The notes beneath the pieces are model-generated. The model saw only the letters and a program-made list of their open reading frames with translations, had not been told where the DNA came from and searched no databases. 35,739 nucleotides of DNA from a virus. Every line of letters begins with the position of its first letter. Position 1 is the first letter of the stretch. Where the stretch lies: positions 1 through 35,739 of the IMG/VR virus record IMGVR_UViG_3300044630_003458, one strand, 5' to 3'. Below, one piece after another: positions 12,808 to 35,143 of this stretch. The translations under genes were made by a program, and so were the position numbers.

Positions 12808-13013
12808 TTTATATATGTTTCCTCAATCATTTCTCGGGCAATATCTTCGTCAACTAAGCAACGAATCACTGCGTCTTTTACTTTAAACTTTTCGCAAAAA
12901 GCCCTGCCGAATTTCTTACCTTTAAGTTGGTCAAAAATATACTCTTTGCAAAAAACTTCGTAATCTTGTTTACTTATCTCTGGTTTAGGTAGATTATCTA
13001 AAAGAGAAATCAT
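12804..13013 (-). CDS. Conserved phage hypothetical protein (69 aa)
   Basis: ATG at 13013 gives 69 residues. A TTG at 13037 would add eight residues and couple it to the preceding stop, so the start is uncertain. The sequence [20 protein letters not shown], then [20 protein letters not shown] and [11 protein letters not shown], is an all-helical small protein. I have seen similar FxExFCxxF...DxxIxxL sequences in other phages. Function unknown. It is directly upstream of ferredoxin (ATGA overlap). Confidence 0.68.
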
Positions 13014-13027
13014 GGTAGTGAATGCAT

Positions 13028-13567
13028 TCAATCCCAAAGACTCCTATAATACTTACCAAACAAATCGAATCCTTCTTGTATACGTTCTTCGTGTAATTGA
13101 TGGCCCGCACTATCATACCAATGTTCGTCAGGATTCTTATCGACCATTTGATAAGTTGCTTCCATTTTACCAGTTACTGGGTTTGGATATAACTTGTCAG
13201 TCTTAATCCAATCAGTATCCATTGTGCCGTGATGGTATTGTGCGCTATAGTCATCTTTGATTAATTGCTCAAAAGACCAGATCATTTTATCTAGGATTTC
13301 ATCCCAACGCTTGGCAGCTATTTCCCATGCTTCGTTGTGAGATTCTTTGTAGAAATCAAAGCTATCTTGTGCAGACCAATCTTCTCCACCAACATCATTT
13401 ACTACTTCGCTAGGGACACCGTGCTTTTCTTCTTTAAGTTGCAATAGTGCGGGCAGAATGATATGAGCTAATGTATGATCTAATGACCAGGTATCAAATC
13501 GCTCAATGTCAATATCAATCTTTCTATCCCCGTTGCCCTTAGGATACTTACCAATTTTTATTTTCAT
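13028..13567 (-). CDS. Conserved phage hypothetical protein (179 aa)
   Basis: The 179-residue protein starts MKIKIGKYPKGNGDRKIDID. It contains RFDTWSLDHTLAHIILPALL, then a central helical stretch with RWDEILDKMIWSFEQLIKDD, and ends RIQEGFDLFGKYYRSLWD. These phrases recur in hypothetical proteins of many environmental podo- and myoviruses. No catalytic motif is clear, although several His, Asp and Trp residues are conserved-looking. It is coupled by ATGA to the preceding gene in the cupin-to-deaminase operon. Confidence 0.75.
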   Translation of the reverse strand: MKIKIGKYPKGNGDRKIDIDIERFDTWSLDHTLAHIILPALLQLKEEKHGVPSEVVNDVGGEDWSAQDSFDFYKESHNEAWEIAAKRWDEILDKMIWSFEQLIKDDYSAQYHHGTMDTDWIKTDKLYPNPVTGKMEATYQMVDKNPDEHWYDSAGHQLHEERIQEGFDLFGKYYRSLWD

Positions 13568-13944
13568 GTTTTATTTGCCAAAATATCATTTTTTACTTTA
13601 CCGTCTACAAATGCAAACACATCATTAGTGTGTTCATCCATTACAGCGGCATACTTGATTTGTTTATATTCTTTTGCTAGTTTGGCAAGTTCTTCAACTG
13701 TAGTTGCTTGACAAATGAATGTTCTATCGTCTTTTTCATAAAGGTATAACACATTGTTAACTCGTTCAATGAACAATTGGCTCACTGCATTATTTGGTTT
13801 TTCTTCTTCGTCAAATATAGACATATCGATGCCCTCACTTTTGGCTTCTTTGATAATCAAATCTTTGATGCGCCAAATTAACATAGAATAACCCACATGA
13901 TAACCAATGAAAAGACCAACGATAAAAATTAGTAATTCAAACAT
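13564..13944 (-). CDS. N-terminally membrane-anchored phage protein
   Basis: The 126-residue protein starts MFELLIFIVGLFIGYHVGYS, one hydrophobic anchor. A soluble ~100-residue domain with VNNVLYLYEKDDRTFICQAT and TVEELAKLAKEYKQIKYAAV follows. The soluble part looks alpha/beta and would face the cytoplasm. The ATG follows an ATAAATA box by five bases, with no ribosome site. It is in the nucleotide/redox operon. Function unknown. Confidence 0.7.
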   Translation of the reverse strand: MFELLIFIVGLFIGYHVGYSMLIWRIKDLIIKEAKSEGIDMSIFDEEEKPNNAVSQLFIERVNNVLYLYEKDDRTFICQATTVEELAKLAKEYKQIKYAAVMDEHTNDVFAFVDGKVKNDILANKT

Positions 13945-19152: not shown

Positions 19153-19181
19153 ATTATATACCCAAACCGATTTATTGTCAA
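19153..19181 (-). promoter_or_regulatory. Sigma70 promoter (extended shared motif)
   Basis: TTGACA, 17-nt spacer reading ATAAATCGGTTTGGGTA, then TATAAT, on the minus strand. It is the archetype of the repeated promoter in this window. Confidence 0.9.
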
Positions 19182-20675: not shown

Positions 20676-22073
20676 TTATTTCATGCTGTTGGCACGAACT
20701 TCGTTAAAGGTGTATTCGCGGATGAGTTTACCATCACGGAATACTTCCACCAGAGCATCAGTCCAAGGACCAATGCCTTTGTCAGTCCATCCTCTTGGTG
20801 CTTCAACACTAGATGCGAATTCACCACCGGATTGCCAAAGAGTGACACGACCTTTCTTAGAGGCTTTCACTTGGTCAGTGATTGGGTCTTTGAACACATC
20901 GACCCATTCACCGTTGACTTCTGCACTTGAACACTTCATAGCGAACTTTTGTGTATCACGGTCAAGTTGTTGCAACAATGCACCACCCATACCGAATGCA
21001 ATGTTATCCATGCTGTAGCCATGTACATCAACAATCACCCCAAGAATTGACTTGATGCCCAATTGGTTGATACCGTCACCCCACAATACACGAACATTGT
21101 TCAGTACTTTGTAGCCTTTACTGTTTGTAGTGTAGCCGAAACCTTCAGCCAAAATGCGGAACATCTTTGGCAACACTTCAACAGGGTCACCACTGTCTGG
21201 ACGAATAACAACCGTAGCACCGCTATCAATAACTTGTTGTTTCAACTCAGTGCCCCACATGCGGCATGCTTCGTAAATGTCGTAGCTGTCAGAAACAACT
21301 GCCAACAATGCACCGGGCTTGCCGAATTGACTAACCATGTTGCTGTAGGCTTTTACTTCACCTGCACGACCCCAACTGGTGATTGTACTGTGTTCTGCGG
21401 CTGGGATTGAGAAACCAGCAATACCAGCATTGTAATATTCACGAGCAAACAGAACACCAGTAATAGTGTCAGTTCCCATAAAGTTGACCAGGTGCGCGGC
21501 ACTTCCGATGCCAGCACTTTCAAGGCTAGATACGCCCCGAGCACCAAAATCGTGCAACTTAAAATCAATAGTTTTAGGATCACCTGATTTCTCCAAGTAC
21601 TCTGTGAGAATGTTTTTAATGAATTTGCTTTGTGTAGATACAGTAGTACCATACCACACTGCTCGGAGCAATGCAGTCTCAAGCCAAGTAGTCAACCAGA
21701 AGCATTCTGGATCTGTGTTTTCAATTGTAGCAAGAATATTTTTAACTGGGACAACCGTTCCTTCCGGGACTGCCCTAATGACAACTGGGAGGTATCCATT
21801 GTGCTGGTCAAGAATGTACTGCCATCCTGTTCTGTTGAAAGGCTCACCGTGCAGGGTAAGGATTTCATCAGCAATGTCAATGTCTGATTGTGTGATGGGT
21901 GCAAGCAGGTATTCCTTGATAAAAGCCTGTAGTCCGAAGAATACTGTTCTATCGTAACGGCCACCGCGACTTTCGATATAACTATAAACACCAGTAGTTC
22001 CTGCTGGGTATTGTTTGAACATGCTGACTTTGTAGCTGTCAGTGTTCAGGATAAGATTTTTTGCGAGTTTCAT
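20676..22073 (-). CDS. nadV: Nicotinamide phosphoribosyltransferase (NAMPT/NadV)
   Basis: The 465-residue protein aligns throughout with NAMPT. It has HDFGARGVSSLESAGIGSAA (His174, Phe176, Arg179), GTDTITG (Asp202), the catalytic His228 in AAEHST, SDSYDIY (Asp262) and IRPDSGDP (Arg291, Asp293). The C-terminal FKDPITDQVKASKKGR block is also conserved. It makes NMN from nicotinamide and PRPP. With the NMN adenylyltransferase at 24321 this is a complete two-step NAD+ salvage route, as in vibriophage KVP40. It has a good ribosome site (AAAGGAAC), its own promoter and its own terminator, so it can be expressed strongly and early. Confidence 0.97.
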   Translation of the reverse strand: MKLAKNLILNTDSYKVSMFKQYPAGTTGVYSYIESRGGRYDRTVFFGLQAFIKEYLLAPITQSDIDIADEILTLHGEPFNRTGWQYILDQHNGYLPVVIRAVPEGTVVPVKNILATIENTDPECFWLTTWLETALLRAVWYGTTVSTQSKFIKNILTEYLEKSGDPKTIDFKLHDFGARGVSSLESAGIGSAAHLVNFMGTDTITGVLFAREYYNAGIAGFSIPAAEHSTITSWGRAGEVKAYSNMVSQFGKPGALLAVVSDSYDIYEACRMWGTELKQQVIDSGATVVIRPDSGDPVEVLPKMFRILAEGFGYTTNSKGYKVLNNVRVLWGDGINQLGIKSILGVIVDVHGYSMDNIAFGMGGALLQQLDRDTQKFAMKCSSAEVNGEWVDVFKDPITDQVKASKKGRVTLWQSGGEFASSVEAPRGWTDKGIGPWTDALVEVFRDGKLIREYTFNEVRANSMK

Positions 22074-22126
22074 AATAAAGTTCCTTTATCAAAATTGCCA
22101 GGCGTCTATCGCTTGGACTTGTTTAT

Positions 22127-22155
22127 AGTATAACATTAACCTATTTTAATGTCAA
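22127..22155 (-). promoter_or_regulatory. Sigma70 promoter of NAMPT gene
   Basis: TTGACA, 17-nt spacer, TATACT on the minus strand. The TGA inside TTGACA is the stop codon of the upstream macro-domain gene. Confidence 0.85.
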
Positions 22156-22676
22156 CCAAATTTGACCAAAGTGACAGTGCCACCTTCAGCCGAAACCCTT
22201 TCGGCGAACATGTCAATCATCGGAATGATGATATCTTTGTCGCCACCAGCCAAACCCATACCAATGTAGGGCAAGCCAAATCTTTTGCCTGGATATACAA
22301 AAGCCAACTTTTCCAAAATCAATTGAAAGGCAATGTACTCAAACACATCAGTACCTTGACTCATATTGTATTGAGTGTAGGCGTTGATGATATCAAATGT
22401 AACCGTGCCATTTTTTAAAATGACATTCTCTTGTGTCCATGTACCCAACTTGGTGTAATCACCGCGAACAGTTTTACTGTCTACTTCGGCAACATGGGGA
22501 TAGCGTTCACGAATCTCACGAGCAATGCCGCCACCCATTGTGTTAAAGCAATTACAGCCTTGAACAATAACATCAAAATCACCATTCTCTGCCATGTCAA
22601 TCAAATTACCTTTAGCATGTTTTAGATCAGTCTTCGGGAAGTCCACGGGATTGTCTGTGTTTGTATAATGTCTCAT
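22152..22676 (-). CDS. Macro-domain ADP-ribose-binding protein
   Basis: The 174-residue single macro domain has the ribose-binding loop QGCNCFNTMGGGIAREIR (Asn42, Gly48-50) and the phosphate-binding loop PYIGMGLAGGD (about 135-145). The layout is closest to the Poa1p-like group that removes phosphate from ADP-ribose-1''-phosphate or hydrolyses ADP-ribosyl bonds. In this NAD block it could recycle or sense ADP-ribose made by host defence NADases, or reverse ADP-ribosylation (inference). The ribosome site AAGGAGC precedes ATG at 22676. It is the third gene of the NMNAT operon. Confidence 0.9.
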   Translation of the reverse strand: MRHYTNTDNPVDFPKTDLKHAKGNLIDMAENGDFDVIVQGCNCFNTMGGGIAREIRERYPHVAEVDSKTVRGDYTKLGTWTQENVILKNGTVTFDIINAYTQYNMSQGTDVFEYIAFQLILEKLAFVYPGKRFGLPYIGMGLAGGDKDIIIPMIDMFAERVSAEGGTVTLVKFG

Positions 22677-22691
22677 ATCATGCTCCTTGCA

Positions 22692-23300
22692 TTATTTAAA
22701 TTTCGGACCAACTGCCCAAACTACAATTGATTTTCGAACACCGCTAATCAACGGAGTTACTCGATGTGTGATATACGATGGAAATGCTATTACTTGACCT
22801 TTTTGTTGAGGGATAATAATAGGAGTTTTTACATCATTAGATACCACTTCAAAATCACCACCTTGATATTCAGAATTATCTGATAAGATTAAACTAAACG
22901 AAAGTTTTCTAGGAGTCTTTAGTTCATCAGCAACAACCGGACCAAAAGCCATATCGGAATGATATGTATAATGTGCGCCTGGCTGATTATATACTGTATA
23001 CTGAAAACGATCAAACCCTATTAAATTAAATTGGAAATACTTATCATTTACTGTATTAGCAATATATTCCAAGATATCAAAAATCCAATCGCTTTCATTA
23101 TTGATATAGTGAAATCTAGTGTCACATAATCTAATTTCAGTATTTTGAGTTCCGTGCCCCAAGGTAGAAGAAGATGTACCTTGACTGTCACAATACTTTT
23201 TAATTAGTTCTATTGTAGAATCGTCAATTAACCCATTCATAGTTATGTAAGGATAAGTGATGTAATCTTTTACCGTTGGCATGTCAATCAATGCTTCCAT
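22692..23300 (-). CDS. 2-oxoglutarate/Fe(II)-dependent dioxygenase (PKHD/PiuC-like)
   Basis: From ATG at 23300 (AGGTG upstream; a GTG 9 nt earlier is an alternative) the product is 202 residues. The double-stranded beta-helix ligands are clear: His114 and Asp116 in YHSDMAFG, His179 in YITHRVTP, and the 2OG-binding Arg189 in GVRKS. The context is typical of prolyl-hydroxylase-like phage enzymes (LSFSLILSDNSEYQGGDFE). The substrate may be a protein, nucleotide or small molecule. It lies between NMN adenylyltransferase and the macro protein in the same operon, so a link to ADP-ribose or NAD chemistry is possible but unproven. Confidence 0.92.
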   Translation of the reverse strand: MEALIDMPTVKDYITYPYITMNGLIDDSTIELIKKYCDSQGTSSSTLGHGTQNTEIRLCDTRFHYINNESDWIFDILEYIANTVNDKYFQFNLIGFDRFQYTVYNQPGAHYTYHSDMAFGPVVADELKTPRKLSFSLILSDNSEYQGGDFEVVSNDVKTPIIIPQQKGQVIAFPSYITHRVTPLISGVRKSIVVWAVGPKFK

Positions 23301-23301
23301 C

Positions 23302-24321
23302 TTATGCACCTAAAAAGTGTTGTAAAATTTCGTAGTGGTCCTCAAAAGTTTCCTCTGACTTGACCTCTGCGATAGGAACCCATCGGGCTTTTTCAGCATC
23401 GTCACTGCCTTTTACTTTAGGCAACTCACCGTCAGGCAATTCAATATGAAACGCATGAGTGATGATACGTCCGCGTGGGCTACGACCAATCGCATCAAAG
23501 ACCTTACTACGCTTGATGCTACCTCGCAACACGGGTGCGGGCACTTTAATCATTGTTTCTTCTCTGAGTTCACGAATAGCCGCATCCTCTACACTCTTGT
23601 CCGTGTTAGCATTCACATAACCACCGGGCAATGCCCACAGACCTTTACCGGGTTCGCTACGGCGTTTAATCATCAGTACATGACCTGATTGAATTACGAC
23701 CGCATCCGCAGTAGAGAAGATTGGGGGATAAGGCAACGATGCATATTGCTTTTTGTAGTTAGCCACAAACTCACGTTCGCGGATAATTTGTTCATACTCA
23801 GGCGTAGTGCGGAACTGTTCTAAGAAATCAAATGTAGTTTCCGGAACCACACCTTGAATAAATTTCATGTTAACATCACGCTTAAAATACAGGTCACGAA
23901 TGTCAACAGCACTCAAAAATTCAATGAGTCCTACATTCTCATATCCCCATTGCGGGAACATGTCAAGGTAGAAACTTGAATCATCTTTCTTGTGACCGAT
24001 GATGCCAACCTTGCCACCAAGTACATTGTGCTTACTTACAATGCCTTGAACACGCACTGCCCAGGCTTGGTCGTTGTAAATAGTGTCAATGTTTTCTTCA
24101 ATATAGACCTGCATATCAAGACCGCGGGTAGCGTTCTTAATCATTACTGCACGTTCGGCACTTGTGAAGGGGTTTTTATATGTACGAGGTTGTTTACCAG
24201 AACCTGTGATAATGACCAATTGGTCAGTCAATGCTGTGGCACGTTTGATAATCTCAAGGTGAGCATTGTGTAATGGTTGAAAACGTCCAATTAGGACAAG
24301 TGTATCATACTTTTTTGACAT
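23302..24321 (-). CDS. Bifunctional NMN adenylyltransferase / Nudix hydrolase
   Basis: In the 339-residue protein, residues 1-185 form a nucleotidyltransferase domain with GRFQPLHNAH (12-21) and the later AVDIRDLYF segment, as in NadM/NadR-type NMNAT. Residues 200-339 form a Nudix domain with the box GGYVNANTDKSVEDAAIREL...REET (233-256) intact. The first domain makes NAD+ from NMN and ATP. The second hydrolyses ADP-ribose or related dinucleotides. The same fusion is known from KVP40 (NatV). It follows a strong promoter and AAAGGATT ribosome site and heads an operon with the 2OG oxygenase and macro protein. Confidence 0.96.
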   Translation of the reverse strand: MSKKYDTLVLIGRFQPLHNAHLEIIKRATALTDQLVIITGSGKQPRTYKNPFTSAERAVMIKNATRGLDMQVYIEENIDTIYNDQAWAVRVQGIVSKHNVLGGKVGIIGHKKDDSSFYLDMFPQWGYENVGLIEFLSAVDIRDLYFKRDVNMKFIQGVVPETTFDFLEQFRTTPEYEQIIREREFVANYKKQYASLPYPPIFSTADAVVIQSGHVLMIKRRSEPGKGLWALPGGYVNANTDKSVEDAAIRELREETMIKVPAPVLRGSIKRSKVFDAIGRSPRGRIITHAFHIELPDGELPKVKGSDDAEKARWVPIAEVKSEETFEDHYEILQHFLGA

Positions 24322-24384: not shown

Positions 24385-24413
24385 ATTGTATCAGACTTTA
24401 CTTTTTCTGTCAA
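24385..24413 (-). promoter_or_regulatory. Sigma70 promoter of the NMNAT-oxygenase-macro operon
   Basis: TTGACA, 17-nt spacer, TACAAT on the minus strand, inside the end of the small basic gene. A GATAAATAA sequence just downstream may add late expression. Confidence 0.82.
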
Positions 24414-24588: not shown

Positions 24589-24617
24589 ATTATACGCCCA
24601 AACTAATTTATTGTCAA
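24589..24617 (-). promoter_or_regulatory. Sigma70 promoter, start codon at +1
   Basis: TTGACA, spacer ATAAATTAGTTTGGGCG (17 nt), TATAAT, then six bases to the ATG of the 63-aa gene. Confidence 0.88.
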
Positions 24618-24621
24618 GCCA

Positions 24622-24645
24622 CAAAAAAGCCCCAACTAAGGGGCT
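24622..24645 (-). terminator. Intrinsic terminator after rIIB-like gene
   Basis: Minus strand AGCCCC-TTAGTT-GGGGCT followed by TTTTTG, then straight into the next -35. Confidence 0.9.
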
Positions 24646-24663: not shown

Positions 24664-25722
24664 TTACTTAGTTGGGAAGGGCCACGCACCACTTTGTGCA
24701 TTAAAAGTAGTTCCTGGTGGAGGACTTACTTTACCATCACTGTGTCGAGTCCAACCTGCCGGTGTACTCACATACTGATAGTGAGGATCGTAGCCATCTT
24801 CGCTATGCATCTGTCCCTTTTCGTAACCTTGTTCGTAATTGTCAAGATCAGTCTTAGTCCAAAGCGCGCCGCTATCATAGTCGTTACCGGAGTAACCATC
24901 AGTGTAGCCTTTGTAGAATGGAGTAGATCCAGTCTTTGGCTCACGCACTACAGGCTTAGCAATGTTGTTGCTGGCGTTAGACTGCACAGGCTTGTTGAAA
25001 GCATTGTCAATCTTGTCACCATCGTTACCGATTTCACCGATAACTTCATAACGACATGCACGACCCTTAGCGTTGTTGTAGTCGCTAGGGATAGAGACCA
25101 CATCAGCAGGGTTAATCTTCAAGATAACAACACGGCTGTCGTAACCATTACCAAAGTGTGGCAGATAGTCTTGCGAACAGAAGTGCAAACCAGTTGAACA
25201 AGTTTGATCCTTGTTGTCATCAACTTCGTTGCGTTCCATTTCAACAATCTTGCCAACACTGTTGTCCATAGTGCCACTGTGAATGTCCAAGAAGTCATTA
25301 CGAACTTTCTTGTAAGCCAAGAAGCAACCATCAGGAGTGATTGGCAAACTGTTCTTTTCCAAGAAGTCATACAACTCAGTGACTGCCCGCTTAGATGGGT
25401 TAGTCATCAAGTTTTCCATGAAGTTGACCAGAGGTTCAATTGGGAAACCATCTTGCAACATCGCAACCATTCGGTTAGTCAATGCATTGTGCATTGGCTT
25501 ACCTTTCCAAAACAATTCCTCACCTTGGACACTTACATTGCCTTTGCCATAGTTGAGAACAACCTTGACAGGCTCAACAATGTCTTTAACCAAGTCCCAA
25601 TCTTGGGCCTTGATAGCGTCCAAGACCTTTTGAAAGGTAATGTGTGATTTAGAAATTGTATGGGGCTTAGAACCAATCACAACTGTGATACTATTGCCCT
25701 GCATGATAAACGGAAAACTCAT
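24664..25722 (-). CDS. rIIB-like protein
   Basis: ATG at 25722 is chosen because AAAGGAGTCT lies upstream and it follows the rIIA stop immediately. The result is 352 residues. The N-terminal MSFPFIMQGNSITVVIGSKP, then a helical RAVTELYDFLEKNSLPITPD and FLAYKKVRNDFLDIHSGTMD, and GLHFCSQDYLPHFGNG, match the RIIB family of T4-like phages. The C-terminal ~110 residues (YKGYTDGYSGNDYDSG...) are a Gly/Tyr/Asp-rich extension not in T4 RIIB (312 aa). In T4, RII proteins counter lambda Rex exclusion and affect membranes; the biochemical role is still open. Confidence 0.88.
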   Translation of the reverse strand: MSFPFIMQGNSITVVIGSKPHTISKSHITFQKVLDAIKAQDWDLVKDIVEPVKVVLNYGKGNVSVQGEELFWKGKPMHNALTNRMVAMLQDGFPIEPLVNFMENLMTNPSKRAVTELYDFLEKNSLPITPDGCFLAYKKVRNDFLDIHSGTMDNSVGKIVEMERNEVDDNKDQTCSTGLHFCSQDYLPHFGNGYDSRVVILKINPADVVSIPSDYNNAKGRACRYEVIGEIGNDGDKIDNAFNKPVQSNASNNIAKPVVREPKTGSTPFYKGYTDGYSGNDYDSGALWTKTDLDNYEQGYEKGQMHSEDGYDPHYQYVSTPAGWTRHSDGKVSPPPGTTFNAQSGAWPFPTK

Positions 25723-25723
25723 T

Positions 25724-27886
25724 TTAGACTCCTTTAGTCTGGTCGATAATGTTAATATACTCTGCCAAGTCAGCACCTTCTGTGCCGTATTTGCTGAGAT
25801 TCTTAATCAGCGGGTAACGCTTTTTAATAGCCTCAACTTCTTTGTTGTACTTATCGATCAAAGTAGTAGGATCAACATTTGTTGATGTAGCAACCTTGTA
25901 CTGTCGGCACAACCATTCCAAACTCTGACGCATTTTATCATCAGATTCTTTCACATCCTTGAATGTATTGAACAGAACCAAGTAAGGACTATTCTTTTCA
26001 GTGATGTGTTTAGTAGCATTATACTGGTAAAGTTCTTTCCAGTCAATACTCTGTTTGACCAAACCCATCACATCAGCTTGACCCAACTTAGCCAACTTGC
26101 CTGCAATGTGTTCATCCAAGTTAACCCAGTTCTTTTGAGTCTTGACCCAATCAATGTCAGTCTTACGAACACCATAGATGTGATCGGTGTAGATACCACT
26201 CTTACGCAAGTGAATTTCCAAAGTTTTGATATCTTCAACAGTACCAAGGTTCTTGTAACCACTCAGAGGCAAGTAGTAGTAAGTGGCCGTGTTGACAAAG
26301 CTAGAAGCCTTGCCACCATCACGCCATACCATTTCAGCACGATCACGCCAACCACGCCGACCACCTTCTTCCAATCGCATGATAGTGACGTTAGCACCCA
26401 TGCCGCCGGTGCGTTCTTTTTCAAGCAACGAACTAGCCATCATAATCTTAGCTTCTGGTGGCTTAGACAATTCAGCAAAGAAAGGAGTAGTGCGAATTGG
26501 CTTAGACTTATCAACAGCCTCAATCACATACACATTGGATGAGTATGCAGATGTAACACTAGAGTTCTTCCAGTGAAATTTGGCTCGTTCAGTTGCACCA
26601 ACTTTGGTATCATTGACAACAAAGTACACTTCATCACTAACCAAAATTTGCCATTCATCAACTGGCACCTGACCAGCAGGTGTATTATGATACGAATGAG
26701 AGGTCTTGAGTGCCGAACAAACAGCATAGCTACGGTTTTTACTAAAACCTCGAATTGAAATATTGTACAGTGCAGCCAAATCCTTCACATCAAACTTAAA
26801 AGTTTTCAGTGCGTTCCAACGATTTTGTTGTGGTGCGTACAACTCAAATTTTGTATCGGTGCAGTACTTAACCACAGCCTGACTAAACAAGTATTCTTGA
26901 TGGCGCTTGCTCAGATACAATGCTCGTTCCCACAAGTTAGTAATCTTGTCAGCCTCTAGTGCAATGTGAATTGCCAATTGTGCATTCAATGCTTCCAACT
27001 TTGCTTTGATAGCGTTGATAGTTTGCGGAATGTAACTCAAACCTTCACGACTTGCTTGGAAGTCAAGTTCGCCGATGTTGAATTCCATCACAAGACCGCA
27101 ACTCAGCAGACCATGCAGACCACCTAGTACCTTTTCAGCGTTGGGCACATCAATAGGATACTTGATGTTACCCATGATAGCGTAACTATGACGACCATTT
27201 CCTTCGCCGATGTAATGAACACCAGTGATGATGTCCTTTTCTTTGTACTCAGGGTCCTTAAACTTAAAGTCTTTGTTGCCTGAAATTACAGGGCGCAGTT
27301 TGAAGTATTCAAAGACCGATCGGGCTTCGCTACGGAACTTGTCAAAGTCATGTCGTTCTTCTACAGCAAAGCGAACCTCAACACCACTTGGGTCAGTGGT
27401 TTCTTCTTCCATCATCAGGGCAATAGATGGTACACCTTGCTCGTTGATGAAAGCGGTGTAGATTCCCTTGCGACCATCCTTGACTGCGGTTACAGTGAAG
27501 TTATCAGTATAACTAAAAGGAGACTTAGAGCCGAGACCCAAAGCGCCGATGAAGGCATTGCTATCAGTTTTAGTAGATTCAAAGTATGTTGTGTAAATGC
27601 TTGTAACTTGGTCATGAGAAAGTCCTGTACCGTAATCACGGATCGAAAAGAAAGGTTCGAGGCTATTGGGCAAGTGAACATCGAAGGGTGTGTCTTGCTT
27701 GCCTGCGGCTGTGTGACTGTCAACGGCGTTGCAGGACAGTTCTCGAACGATTGCGCGGATCTTGTTAGCATACAGACCTGAGGAAAGAATGTTGAATGCC
27801 TTAGCAGAATTGCGAATGCGGAACTCACCAATCTCGCCCACGTTGGACATGATTGCTTCGTTTTGGGGTGCTGAATTGATAATCAT
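25724..27886 (-). CDS. rIIA-like GHKL ATPase protein
   Basis: The 720 residues are close to T4 RIIA (725). The N-terminal GHKL fold is visible: helix RELSCNAVDSH (Glu49, Asn53), RDYGTGLS (Asp84 to Gly88), and ESTKTDSNAFIGALGLGSKS ending in the GLGSKS lid (117-122). The C-terminal half is helical. RIIA proteins associate with the membrane and protect against exclusion systems in T4. The stop TAA overlaps the region just before the rIIB ATG, so they are co-transcribed. No good ribosome site precedes ATG at 27886. Confidence 0.92.
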   Translation of the reverse strand: MIINSAPQNEAIMSNVGEIGEFRIRNSAKAFNILSSGLYANKIRAIVRELSCNAVDSHTAAGKQDTPFDVHLPNSLEPFFSIRDYGTGLSHDQVTSIYTTYFESTKTDSNAFIGALGLGSKSPFSYTDNFTVTAVKDGRKGIYTAFINEQGVPSIALMMEEETTDPSGVEVRFAVEERHDFDKFRSEARSVFEYFKLRPVISGNKDFKFKDPEYKEKDIITGVHYIGEGNGRHSYAIMGNIKYPIDVPNAEKVLGGLHGLLSCGLVMEFNIGELDFQASREGLSYIPQTINAIKAKLEALNAQLAIHIALEADKITNLWERALYLSKRHQEYLFSQAVVKYCTDTKFELYAPQQNRWNALKTFKFDVKDLAALYNISIRGFSKNRSYAVCSALKTSHSYHNTPAGQVPVDEWQILVSDEVYFVVNDTKVGATERAKFHWKNSSVTSAYSSNVYVIEAVDKSKPIRTTPFFAELSKPPEAKIMMASSLLEKERTGGMGANVTIMRLEEGGRRGWRDRAEMVWRDGGKASSFVNTATYYYLPLSGYKNLGTVEDIKTLEIHLRKSGIYTDHIYGVRKTDIDWVKTQKNWVNLDEHIAGKLAKLGQADVMGLVKQSIDWKELYQYNATKHITEKNSPYLVLFNTFKDVKESDDKMRQSLEWLCRQYKVATSTNVDPTTLIDKYNKEVEAIKKRYPLIKNLSKYGTEGADLAEYINIIDQTKGV

Positions 27887-28206: not shown

Positions 28207-28235
28207 ATTATATACCCAAACCCATTTATTGTCAA
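28207..28235 (-). promoter_or_regulatory. Sigma70 promoter of the rII operon
   Basis: TTGACA, spacer ATAAATGGGTTTGGGTA (17 nt), TATAAT on the minus strand. The TGA in TTGACA ends the upstream membrane-protein gene. Confidence 0.9.
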
Positions 28236-32672: not shown

Positions 32673-32701
32673 ATTATATGCCCAAACCGATTTATTGTCA
32701 A
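32673..32701 (-). promoter_or_regulatory. Sigma70 promoter, start codon at +1
   Basis: TTGACA, spacer ATAAATCGGTTTGGGCA (17 nt), TATAAT on the minus strand, then six bases to the ATG at 32666. Confidence 0.9.
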
Positions 32702-34191: not shown

Positions 34192-34220
34192 AGTATAACA
34201 CTTTGGGTATTTTTTGTCAA
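34192..34220 (-). promoter_or_regulatory. Sigma70 promoter, start codon at +1
   Basis: TTGACA, 17-nt spacer AAAAATACCCAAAGTGT, TATACT on the minus strand, then six bases to the ATG at 34185. Confidence 0.85.
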
Positions 34221-34234
34221 TCCCAAATGTTACA

Positions 34235-34241
34235 ATAAATA
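34235..34241 (+). promoter_or_regulatory. Late-type ATAAATA box 5 nt before a plus-strand start
   Basis: AATAAATAGTTTTATG on the plus strand: the box is five bases from the ATG at 34247. Predicted leaderless late transcript, diverging from the early Toprim promoter. Confidence 0.55.
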
Positions 34242-34246
34242 GTTTT

Positions 34247-35143
34247 ATGGACAATATTTTATCTTGGGCATCCGGTGATGGTTTTATAAAAAGATCGTTA
34301 AATTATACAACTAACGAGTTCTTAACTGAATTAACTGACAATGAATTTGAACCTAACAGAGATATAGATGCTATATTCTCCTCACACTTAGAAAAAAGAC
34401 AAACTAATACAATTGATCTGTTATATAGCGGTGGATTAGATAGTGAGCTAGTGTTAATGTTTTGTATTAGAAATAAAATACCAGTTAATGCTATTACTAT
34501 GGTTATCAAAGTAAAAGGTGCTATACTGAATGTAGTCGATCTATACTATTCTGAAAAGTTTTGCAGAGAGAATAATATCAAACAACACCTCTTTCATTTA
34601 GATGCAGAAGATATATTTCATAATGAAGCTTATATAGACTATCTAGTGCCATATCAGATAACGGATCCTCATTTCGCAAGCCATTTTTGGTTACTAGAAA
34701 AATGTCAAAATTTTCCAGTGATTGGGGGAGATTGGCCATGGGTTCATGCACATAAAGTAAACAAAATTTTGTCACCGTTTAGGATAGATGTTTGCTGCCA
34801 TGATAGATTTATGGCTGACAAAAATATACCCGGTATTAGCAATATGATAGGTCATAGTTTAGAATCGTCTTGTTATTTTATTAAAAAACATATTGATAAC
34901 TATGAGACCGGTAGTGATCATTATCATACTGTGCCGTTTTTAAAATACAAAATGTATCAATACGATAAACCTAGAATTAGAAGTTATGGTTGGGAAACTT
35001 GTCCTGCGCAGTTATTAGATTTAAAAAATTACAAATCAATACTATTAGAGAGAGTAGGAACTATAAAAAACAAAATCAAATGGGGTAATAAAATAGGGGA
35101 TATATTACAGTCGAATACCAATGAAAACTCAAGCTTTACGTAA
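34247..35143 (+). CDS. PP-loop ATP-pyrophosphatase-like protein
   Basis: From ATG at 34247 (the more upstream ATG lies in the promoter zone) the product is 298 residues. LLYSGGLDSELVLMFCIRNK (SGGLDS at 61-66) is the PP-loop of N-type ATP pyrophosphatases such as asparagine synthetase, QueC and GuaA. Later features (HLFHLDAEDIFHNEAYIDYL, then VIGGDWPWVHAH) resemble phage members of the asparagine-synthase-like group. It would adenylate a carboxyl or base. Substrate unknown. The gene is more AT-rich than its neighbours, is on the opposite strand, and overlaps the next gene's end by 15 nt, which suggests a separate acquisition. Confidence 0.82.
   Translation: MDNILSWASGDGFIKRSLNYTTNEFLTELTDNEFEPNRDIDAIFSSHLEKRQTNTIDLLYSGGLDSELVLMFCIRNKIPVNAITMVIKVKGAILNVVDLYYSEKFCRENNIKQHLFHLDAEDIFHNEAYIDYLVPYQITDPHFASHFWLLEKCQNFPVIGGDWPWVHAHKVNKILSPFRIDVCCHDRFMADKNIPGISNMIGHSLESSCYFIKKHIDNYETGSDHYHTVPFLKYKMYQYDKPRIRSYGWETCPAQLLDLKNYKSILLERVGTIKNKIKWGNKIGDILQSNTNENSSFT

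Follow-up and report, generated by a model that had tools for sequence, protein, structure and literature searches.

Do four adjoining genes in a viral genome, two of which would rebuild NAD+, form a single functional module? The question is raised by a stretch of 35,739 nucleotides, the whole of IMG/VR record IMGVR_UViG_3300044630_003458 (G000) and here called the window, for which a megablast search against isolates gave no match. A preliminary description had read genes for NAMPT, an NMNAT-Nudix protein, a macro domain and a 2OG-Fe(II) oxygenase as one NAD+ regeneration block that may counter host defences. Profile searches and solved relatives confirmed all four genes where it had placed them, all on the minus strand. 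Comparison with related loci indicates that three of the genes make up a module and that the fourth is a passenger. The module is probably a phage locus for NAD+ reconstitution of the NARP2 type, within which a gene for the processing of ADP-ribose is nested.

The NAD+ salvage pair

The nicotinamide phosphoribosyltransferase (NAMPT/NadV) gene (20676..22073, minus strand) encodes a protein of 465 amino acids that matches phrog_448 (E = 1.6e-156), PF18127 and PF04095 and scores above the NCBIfam cut-off. Among solved proteins it is closest to the bacterial NAMPT entry 7yqo (E = 1.7e-171), which it matches far more strongly than the lowest-scoring entries. The catalytic residues D202, H228, R291, D293 and D333 are invariant in an alignment of 111 sequences. 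The second gene (23302..24321, minus strand) encodes a bifunctional protein of 339 amino acids, an NMN adenylyltransferase joined to a Nudix domain of the ADP-ribose pyrophosphatase type (PF01467, PF00293, phrog_395), and aligns along its entire length with the Synechocystis NMNAT-Nudix protein 2qjo (E = 1.6e-85). The NMNAT motif GRFQPxH, which is of the (H/G)xxH type and reads GRFQPLH in the window, and the Nudix core RExxEE are conserved in 87/87 homologues, H18 of the former being invariant; in the window, K242 stands in place of the first Nudix-box Glu. Families, solved relatives and motifs thus support the regeneration of NAD+ in two steps, as originally proposed. The accompanying statement that all key residues are present is correct for NAMPT, GRFQPxH and RExxEE, but not for the Nudix box at K242 or for the macro domain, where Gln39 replaces a catalytic His.

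By their sequences, the two genes are the known NARP2/NadM-NadV salvage pair, which is common in phages (KVP40; Osterman et al., 2024, as cited in PMC11984713 and PMC12028318). The likeness extends to the placement of the NAMPT and NMNAT genes close together on one strand and to the fusion of NMNAT to Nudix, as in NadM. The relatives are IMG/VR fragments selected for peptide patterns that resemble the query, and all proportions given here therefore describe one phage clade. Of 68 dereplicated loci, 61 had the two genes close together on the same strand and 5 more were truncated; the genes were so placed in phage isolates too. When the scan was started from NAMPT, NMNAT was present at 41/41 loci. 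Identity with NARP1 (Adps and Namat; the residues of the Namat adenine selectivity clamp are described in PMC12774641) was rejected on the absence of a PRS/Adps-type gene (PF13793) from the window and 16 relatives, records that may be fragments; all 14 controls were positive. The locus also differs from NARP1 in that its transferase is NAMPT-like and that none of the four window proteins matched the RyR domain (PF02026) of RyDEP-type signal glycosidases.

A macro domain gene nested in the operon

The third gene (22152..22676, minus strand) encodes a protein of 174 amino acids that has no Pfam match and was recognized as a macro domain of the DarG/Poa1p/TARG1 type by phrog_335 (E = 6.7e-38) and an AlphaFold2 model (pLDDT 89). 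Foldseek matched this model to DarG, Poa1p and TARG1 (E of about 1e-7 for DarG and Poa1p), with DarG macrodomains as the best matches. The protein shares with them the fold, the conserved Asn and the glycine-rich loop, N42 and the loop motif MGxG being invariant in the aligned homologues; however, identity is only about 20%, and the protein is short and stands alone, lacking the C-terminal part of DarG. With respect to the three Poa1p residues whose roles have been described (PMC12846349), Asn26 is kept as Asn42, Ser30 is Thr46, and the catalytic His23 is Gln39, a Gln found also in 47/63 aligned homologues. This last replacement makes hydrolysis uncertain, and binding of ADPr may be all that the protein does. 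The presence of Gln or His at position 39 does not cleanly follow NAD linkage, since more distant members that are linked often have His as well. The literature on Poa1p and macrodomains yielded no direct substrate for this macro subgroup.

NAMPT lies downstream of NMNAT in 61 dereplicated relatives, and in 44 of these the macro gene stands between the two, as it does in 21/41 loci of the scan started from NAMPT. A scan of 43 relatives started from the macro gene found NMNAT within 7 kb in 36 and NAMPT within 7 kb in 35. Of 21 relative records, 12 had a macro gene, in each case as exactly one copy; these 12 had been reached through macro-containing operon loci. The gene is missing in about a quarter of relatives and hence is dispensable for the core; at least eight gains or losses were counted on the NMNAT tree, and the association persists throughout. 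Omega for the macro gene is 0.06–0.23, and in close pairs its dS greatly exceeds the values for the genes on either side (2.1 vs. 0.29 and 0.28 for L006), which indicates that alleles have been swapped in place. NAMPT was found within 6 kb of none of 80 bacterial macro relatives (37–49% identity), and a bacterial origin of the module was rejected on this ground; among the sampled loci the linkage of macro, NMNAT and NAMPT is specific to phages. The extension of the NAD+ pair by a macro domain is therefore upheld by strong reciprocal linkage that recurs on the NMNAT tree. The macro gene belongs with the NAD+ kit, which suggests that the kit also recycles immune by-products.

There are precedents for such an arrangement. 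RyDEP, inserted in a NARP1 operon, supplies NAD+ synthesis with ADPR that it makes from cADPR (PMC13232231), and a macro gene stands beside NARP1 in phage Adele (PMC12846349); these loci resemble the window in having an ADPr-handling gene inside or beside the genes for NAD+ reconstitution. In phage NADAR-NadM-NadV neighborhoods (PMC9503650) an ADPr-processing domain likewise stands between NMNAT-Nudix and NAMPT. In isolates B23 and XacN1 this domain is NADAR, whereas the clade of the window has the macro domain instead, and NADAR was not found in the window or its 16 relatives (17 records). Slots adjoining the macro gene are occupied in other relatives by Nuc_deoxyri_tr2 proteins, at 10 loci, or by SLOG-fold proteins, at 3 loci, both encoded after the macro gene. 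The clade thus differs from NARP2 in the nested macro gene and the exchangeable accessory slots, and the window itself in its passenger oxygenase.

An inserted oxygenase gene

The 2OG-Fe(II) oxygenase gene (22692..23300, minus strand) belongs to PF13640 (PKHD/PiuC-like; E = 1.2e-12; 49 bits vs. a cut-off of 27) and is related to PiuC and to 3dkq. The iron ligands, an HxD motif (H117) and a distal H182, are present, as is R192, the Arg that binds 2OG. With PiuC/YbiX-type PKHD hydroxylases and cyanophage 2OG oxygenases the protein shares the fold family and the iron ligands, but it is distant from them (about 40% identity at most), and no NAD context was found for its relatives. The open reading frame spans 22692–23309 with a GTG start at 23309; the ATG at 23300 is the better start and gives 202 amino acids. 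This ATG is one base past the NMNAT stop and is preceded by a Shine-Dalgarno-like AGGTG inside the end of NMNAT, so the oxygenase is probably translated within the NMNAT unit.

The intact frame and iron-ligand motif, together with a start that abuts the NMNAT stop, are what would be expected of a functional fourth member that, for example, hydroxylates or releases an ADPr-conjugated group. Such a role is nevertheless very improbable. The oxygenase is absent from the NMNAT-NAMPT interval of all 80 NMNAT relatives, and L007, which is 96% identical, has an empty site at its exact position; the gene is thus a recent insertion and no part of the module. No NAD gene is present at any of the 18 oxygenase loci nearest to it, and PF13640 genes are dispersed elsewhere in 9/16 relatives. 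The oxygenase has no demonstrable link to NAD. The co-occurrence in relatives that was expected of the four genes is seen for macro with NMNAT and NAMPT, but not for the oxygenase; the four-gene reading is corrected accordingly, and the oxygenase should not be treated as part of the NAD module.

Possible functions of the module

The enzymatic flows and the anti-defense role that we infer from these sequences would begin with host NADases, which split NAD+ to nicotinamide and ADPR, or to ADPr-based signals and adducts. NAMPT would combine nicotinamide with PRPP made by the host to form NMN, which the NMNAT half of the fusion protein would adenylate to NAD+. The Nudix half could cleave ADPR to AMP and ribose-5-phosphate, from which the host would form PRPP. 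The likeliest role of the macro protein, presumably expressed from the NMNAT transcript, is to bind or hydrolyze ADP-ribose derivatives such as protein adducts, O-acyl or 1''-linked ADPr, and histidine or cyclic-ADPR-type signals; its action would remove a toxic or signaling species and free ADPR for the Nudix step. The broader idea of macro and Nudix domains feeding NAD+ salvage has been put forward before (PMC7824862; PMC9503650).

More tentatively, and with some doubt, the interval between NMNAT-Nudix and NAMPT may be a slot of rapid exchange that is reserved for enzymes or sponges directed against ADP-ribose immune signals (macro, Nuc_deoxyri_tr2 and SLOG; NADAR elsewhere). The macro family, in most members of which the Poa1p His is replaced by Gln, would then act on a new ADPr signal, with its product feeding NAD+ synthesis via Nudix. 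If so, the macro, Nuc_deoxyri_tr2 and SLOG proteins would be uncharacterized candidates for phage removal of such signals, picked out by their location within the genes for NAD+ reconstitution, much as RyDEP was by its location within NARP1.

The locus could instead be an ordinary auxiliary metabolic unit, in which salvage raises the NAD+ pool for replication and DNA ligation whatever the host defense, and the macro protein does no more than clear away ADP-ribose 1''-derivatives such as those from RNA repair. Large phages widely possess NadM-NadV salvage (PMC9503650), macro proteins of the same fold class include ADP-ribose-1''-phosphatases (Poa1p), and in phiM12 NAMPT is followed about 1.5 kb downstream by a macro gene of the Poa1p kind, close to the gene for a putative aminoacyl-tRNA hydrolase. 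This explanation is rather unlikely, however, given that exchanged macro alleles and the other ADPr- or nucleotide-signal folds in the slots look more like counter-defense than housekeeping. Moreover, a search with positive controls found KptA (PF01885), a known RNA-repair source of ADPr-1''P, neither in the window nor in 16 relatives, and an RNA-repair source was rejected on this ground; in a search for RNA ligase (PF09511) the controls gave no match.

That the macro protein is an antidote to DNA or protein ADP-ribosylation by DarT-type or other ADP-ribosyltransferase defenses, sharing the locus by chance and not feeding NAD+ synthesis, is unlikely. The Foldseek ranking of DarG macrodomains and a weak NCBIfam DarG match agree with it, and phage counters to DarTG exist (PMC11481870). 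Against it, the DarG score is 19 bits vs. a cut-off of 250, the known ICP1 counter, AdfB, is a DarT-binding protein of 77 amino acids with no macrodomain (PMC11481870), and tight linkage to NAD+ salvage is not required of an antidote. No DarT was found, and a phage-borne DarTG was rejected on this ground. The roles of antidote and feeder are not mutually exclusive.

Predicted transcription signals

A sigma-70-like promoter with an extended -10 (TTGACA-17-TACAAT; 24385..24413, minus strand) is predicted upstream of the NMNAT unit, as is, by consensus match only, a terminator-like hairpin (24628..24645, minus strand). Sites with at least 10/12 matches occur no more than 200 bases upstream of NMNAT in 44/78 relatives. 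A similar promoter, also with an extended -10 (TTGACA-17-TATACT; 22127..22155, minus strand), is predicted between macro and NAMPT, so NAMPT would have its own promoter as well; by the same threshold and distance, such sites precede NAMPT in 62/71 relatives vs. 33/240 random stretches.

Organization of the gene block

Four minus-strand genes follow one another head to tail in the full-length IMG/VR record of 35,739 bases: NMNAT-Nudix (24321-23302) comes first, then the oxygenase (23300-22692), the macro gene (22676-22152) and NAMPT (22073-20676). All four products were assigned with strong statistics by family scans and by searches of solved structures. The macro gene had no match in a Pfam scan; it matches phrog_335, labelled 'phosphatase', and an AlphaFold2 model (pLDDT 89), built from an alignment of 63 phage homologues, resembles the macrodomains of DarG, Poa1p and TARG1. 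RIIA-like and RIIB-like genes lie immediately upstream of the block (24664-27886, minus strand); in relatives they are found on either flank of it, or are missing.

Conservation of the block in related viruses

A scan of viral contigs with NMNAT-Nudix gave 80 relatives (63-99% identity), onto which the window proteins were mapped; dereplication left 68 loci. NAMPT lies downstream of NMNAT in 61 of these, the rest being truncated (5) or rearranged (2). The macro gene is nested between the two in 44 of the 61 and is lacking in 17, frequencies that hold for this clade, since the relatives are uncultured fragments picked by similarity to the query. Independent macro and NAMPT anchors agree with this result. 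When macro relatives flanked by 5 kb or more on each side served as anchors, NMNAT lay within 7 kb in 36/43 and NAMPT in 35/43; the NAMPT-anchored scan found NMNAT in 41/41, with an intervening macro gene in 21. Exactly one macro copy is carried by each of 12 of the 21 relative records, these 12 having been found through operon loci already containing macro. Within 6 kb of bacterial macro relatives, NAMPT occurred in 0/80 and NMNAT in 1/80. Macro presence changes at least eight times on the NMNAT tree, and thus does not reflect one inherited arrangement.

The preliminary description had grouped all four genes, and the grouping stands for NMNAT, macro and NAMPT, but not for the oxygenase, which is absent from the NMNAT-NAMPT interval of every one of the 80 NMNAT relatives. 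In the related locus L007, whose identity to the window is 96.5% over NMNAT and 96.4% over the macro-to-NAMPT stretch, the end of NMNAT is joined straight to the start of macro, where the window has the oxygenase (~0.6 kb). This empty site and the absence from relatives' intervals argue strongly against membership of the NAD block. No NAD genes were found near the 18 closest oxygenase loci in viral contigs (identity at most 38%), and 9 of 16 related records have PF13640 genes at other positions, with up to eight per record. The oxygenase is therefore a passenger. In one 174-kb record (G016, containing locus L210) several of the eight PF13640 matches fall within 97-124 kb.

The interval ranges from ~45 bases to almost 8 kb in relatives. 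Genes found there encode, among others, a PF15891 nucleoside-deoxyribosyltransferase-like protein (10 loci, mostly right after macro), a SLOG-fold protein immediately 3' of macro (3 loci), repeatedly inserted radical SAM proteins (9 loci, e.g. L036:11599-12549 and L076:11282-12283) and homing endonucleases. In one locus the interval contains a gene for a PnuC-type NMN/NR transporter together with another NMNAT-type gene (L069:11436-12053 and 12845-13834). In another, macro, SLOG-fold and Nuc_deoxyri_tr2 genes follow one another between NMNAT and NAMPT, spaced by a few bases or overlapping (L056:12578-13934). The slot is filled by a NADAR domain in Synechococcus phage B23, the nearest isolate; in XacN1 the NMNAT and NAMPT genes flank one for a DUF1768/NADAR protein.

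Macro dS against the window far exceeds that of its neighbours in L006 (2.1 vs 0.29 and 0.28) and that of the adjacent genes in L032 (3.2 vs 0.89 and 0.48), and omega in close pairs is 0.06-0.23. Divergence several-fold above NMNAT and NAMPT, with low omega, suggests that macro alleles are swapped at a fixed position under purifying selection.

Catalytic residues and transcription

All key residues had been described as present. This is borne out for NAMPT, with active-site residues invariant in an alignment of 111 relatives, and for the NMNAT GRFQPxH motif and Nudix RExxEE core, retained in essentially all of 87 sequences. It does not extend to the first Glu of the Nudix box, replaced by Lys242 in the window, or to the macro position corresponding to catalytic His23 of Poa1p (residue roles from PMC12846349), where 47 of the 63 homologues have Gln and the other 16 have His. 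The His-type members are mostly more distant, and many are also linked to NAD genes. Every one of the 63 aligned sequences keeps macro Asn42 and the MGxG loop.

Strong consensus matches to sigma-70-like promoters were found 5' of NMNAT and between macro and NAMPT, the second being represented in relatives by a site with at least 10 of 12 matches in 62/71, vs 33/240 random stretches. From these putative promoters, NMNAT, oxygenase and macro probably form a single unit, followed by NAMPT, which has a further promoter to itself. Intergenic copies of a near-perfect sigma-70-like element (TTGACAATAAAT..GTTTGGG.ATATAAT) recur on the minus strand of the window (21 matches vs 3.5 expected from shuffles), at 19153-19181, 24589-24617, 28207-28235, 32673-32701 and other sites.

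Proposed mechanism and known systems

NAMPT enzymes form NMN from PRPP and nicotinamide, NMNAT enzymes convert NMN to NAD+, and Nudix enzymes can split ADPR to AMP and ribose-5-phosphate. We infer every functional step of the mechanism proposed here: by family, NAMPT would make NMN from nicotinamide and PRPP, NMNAT would convert it to NAD+, and the Nudix domain may cleave ADPR into AMP and ribose-5-phosphate. A family search (PF13793) of the window and 16 relatives found no phage PRPP synthetase, so the host is the expected source of PRPP. For the macro protein, a plausible role is that of an eraser or a sponge that acts on ADPr derivatives and releases ADPR. His-ADPR is a natural candidate substrate, since it is sensed by a ThsA effector of Thoeris that has a macro domain (PMC11204291).

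Published work covers NadV-NadM salvage in phages, the macro, NADAR and SLOG domains, and the proposal that macro products feed Nudix (PMC7824862, PMC9503650). The closest precedents are RyDEP, encoded inside a NARP1 operon (PMC13232231), and, in phage Adele, a macro gene adjoining NARP1 (PMC12846349). What appears new here is the systematic nesting of macro inside the NadM-NadV pair, beside TIR-DrHyd-SLOG-type proteins, which was not found in the searchable literature, subscription papers lying largely outside it.

Other features of the window

An ORF at 34214-35143 (plus strand), opposite to most window genes, has an SGGLDS PP-loop ATP-pyrophosphatase-like motif and had no match in a PHROG search. 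At the other end, a minus-strand frame running off the contig (3-1316) has a long Gly-X-Y-like repeat (GTSGTSG, GFSG) and likely encodes a collagen-like structural or fibre protein; on this reading the plus-strand ORF at 43-984 would be spurious.
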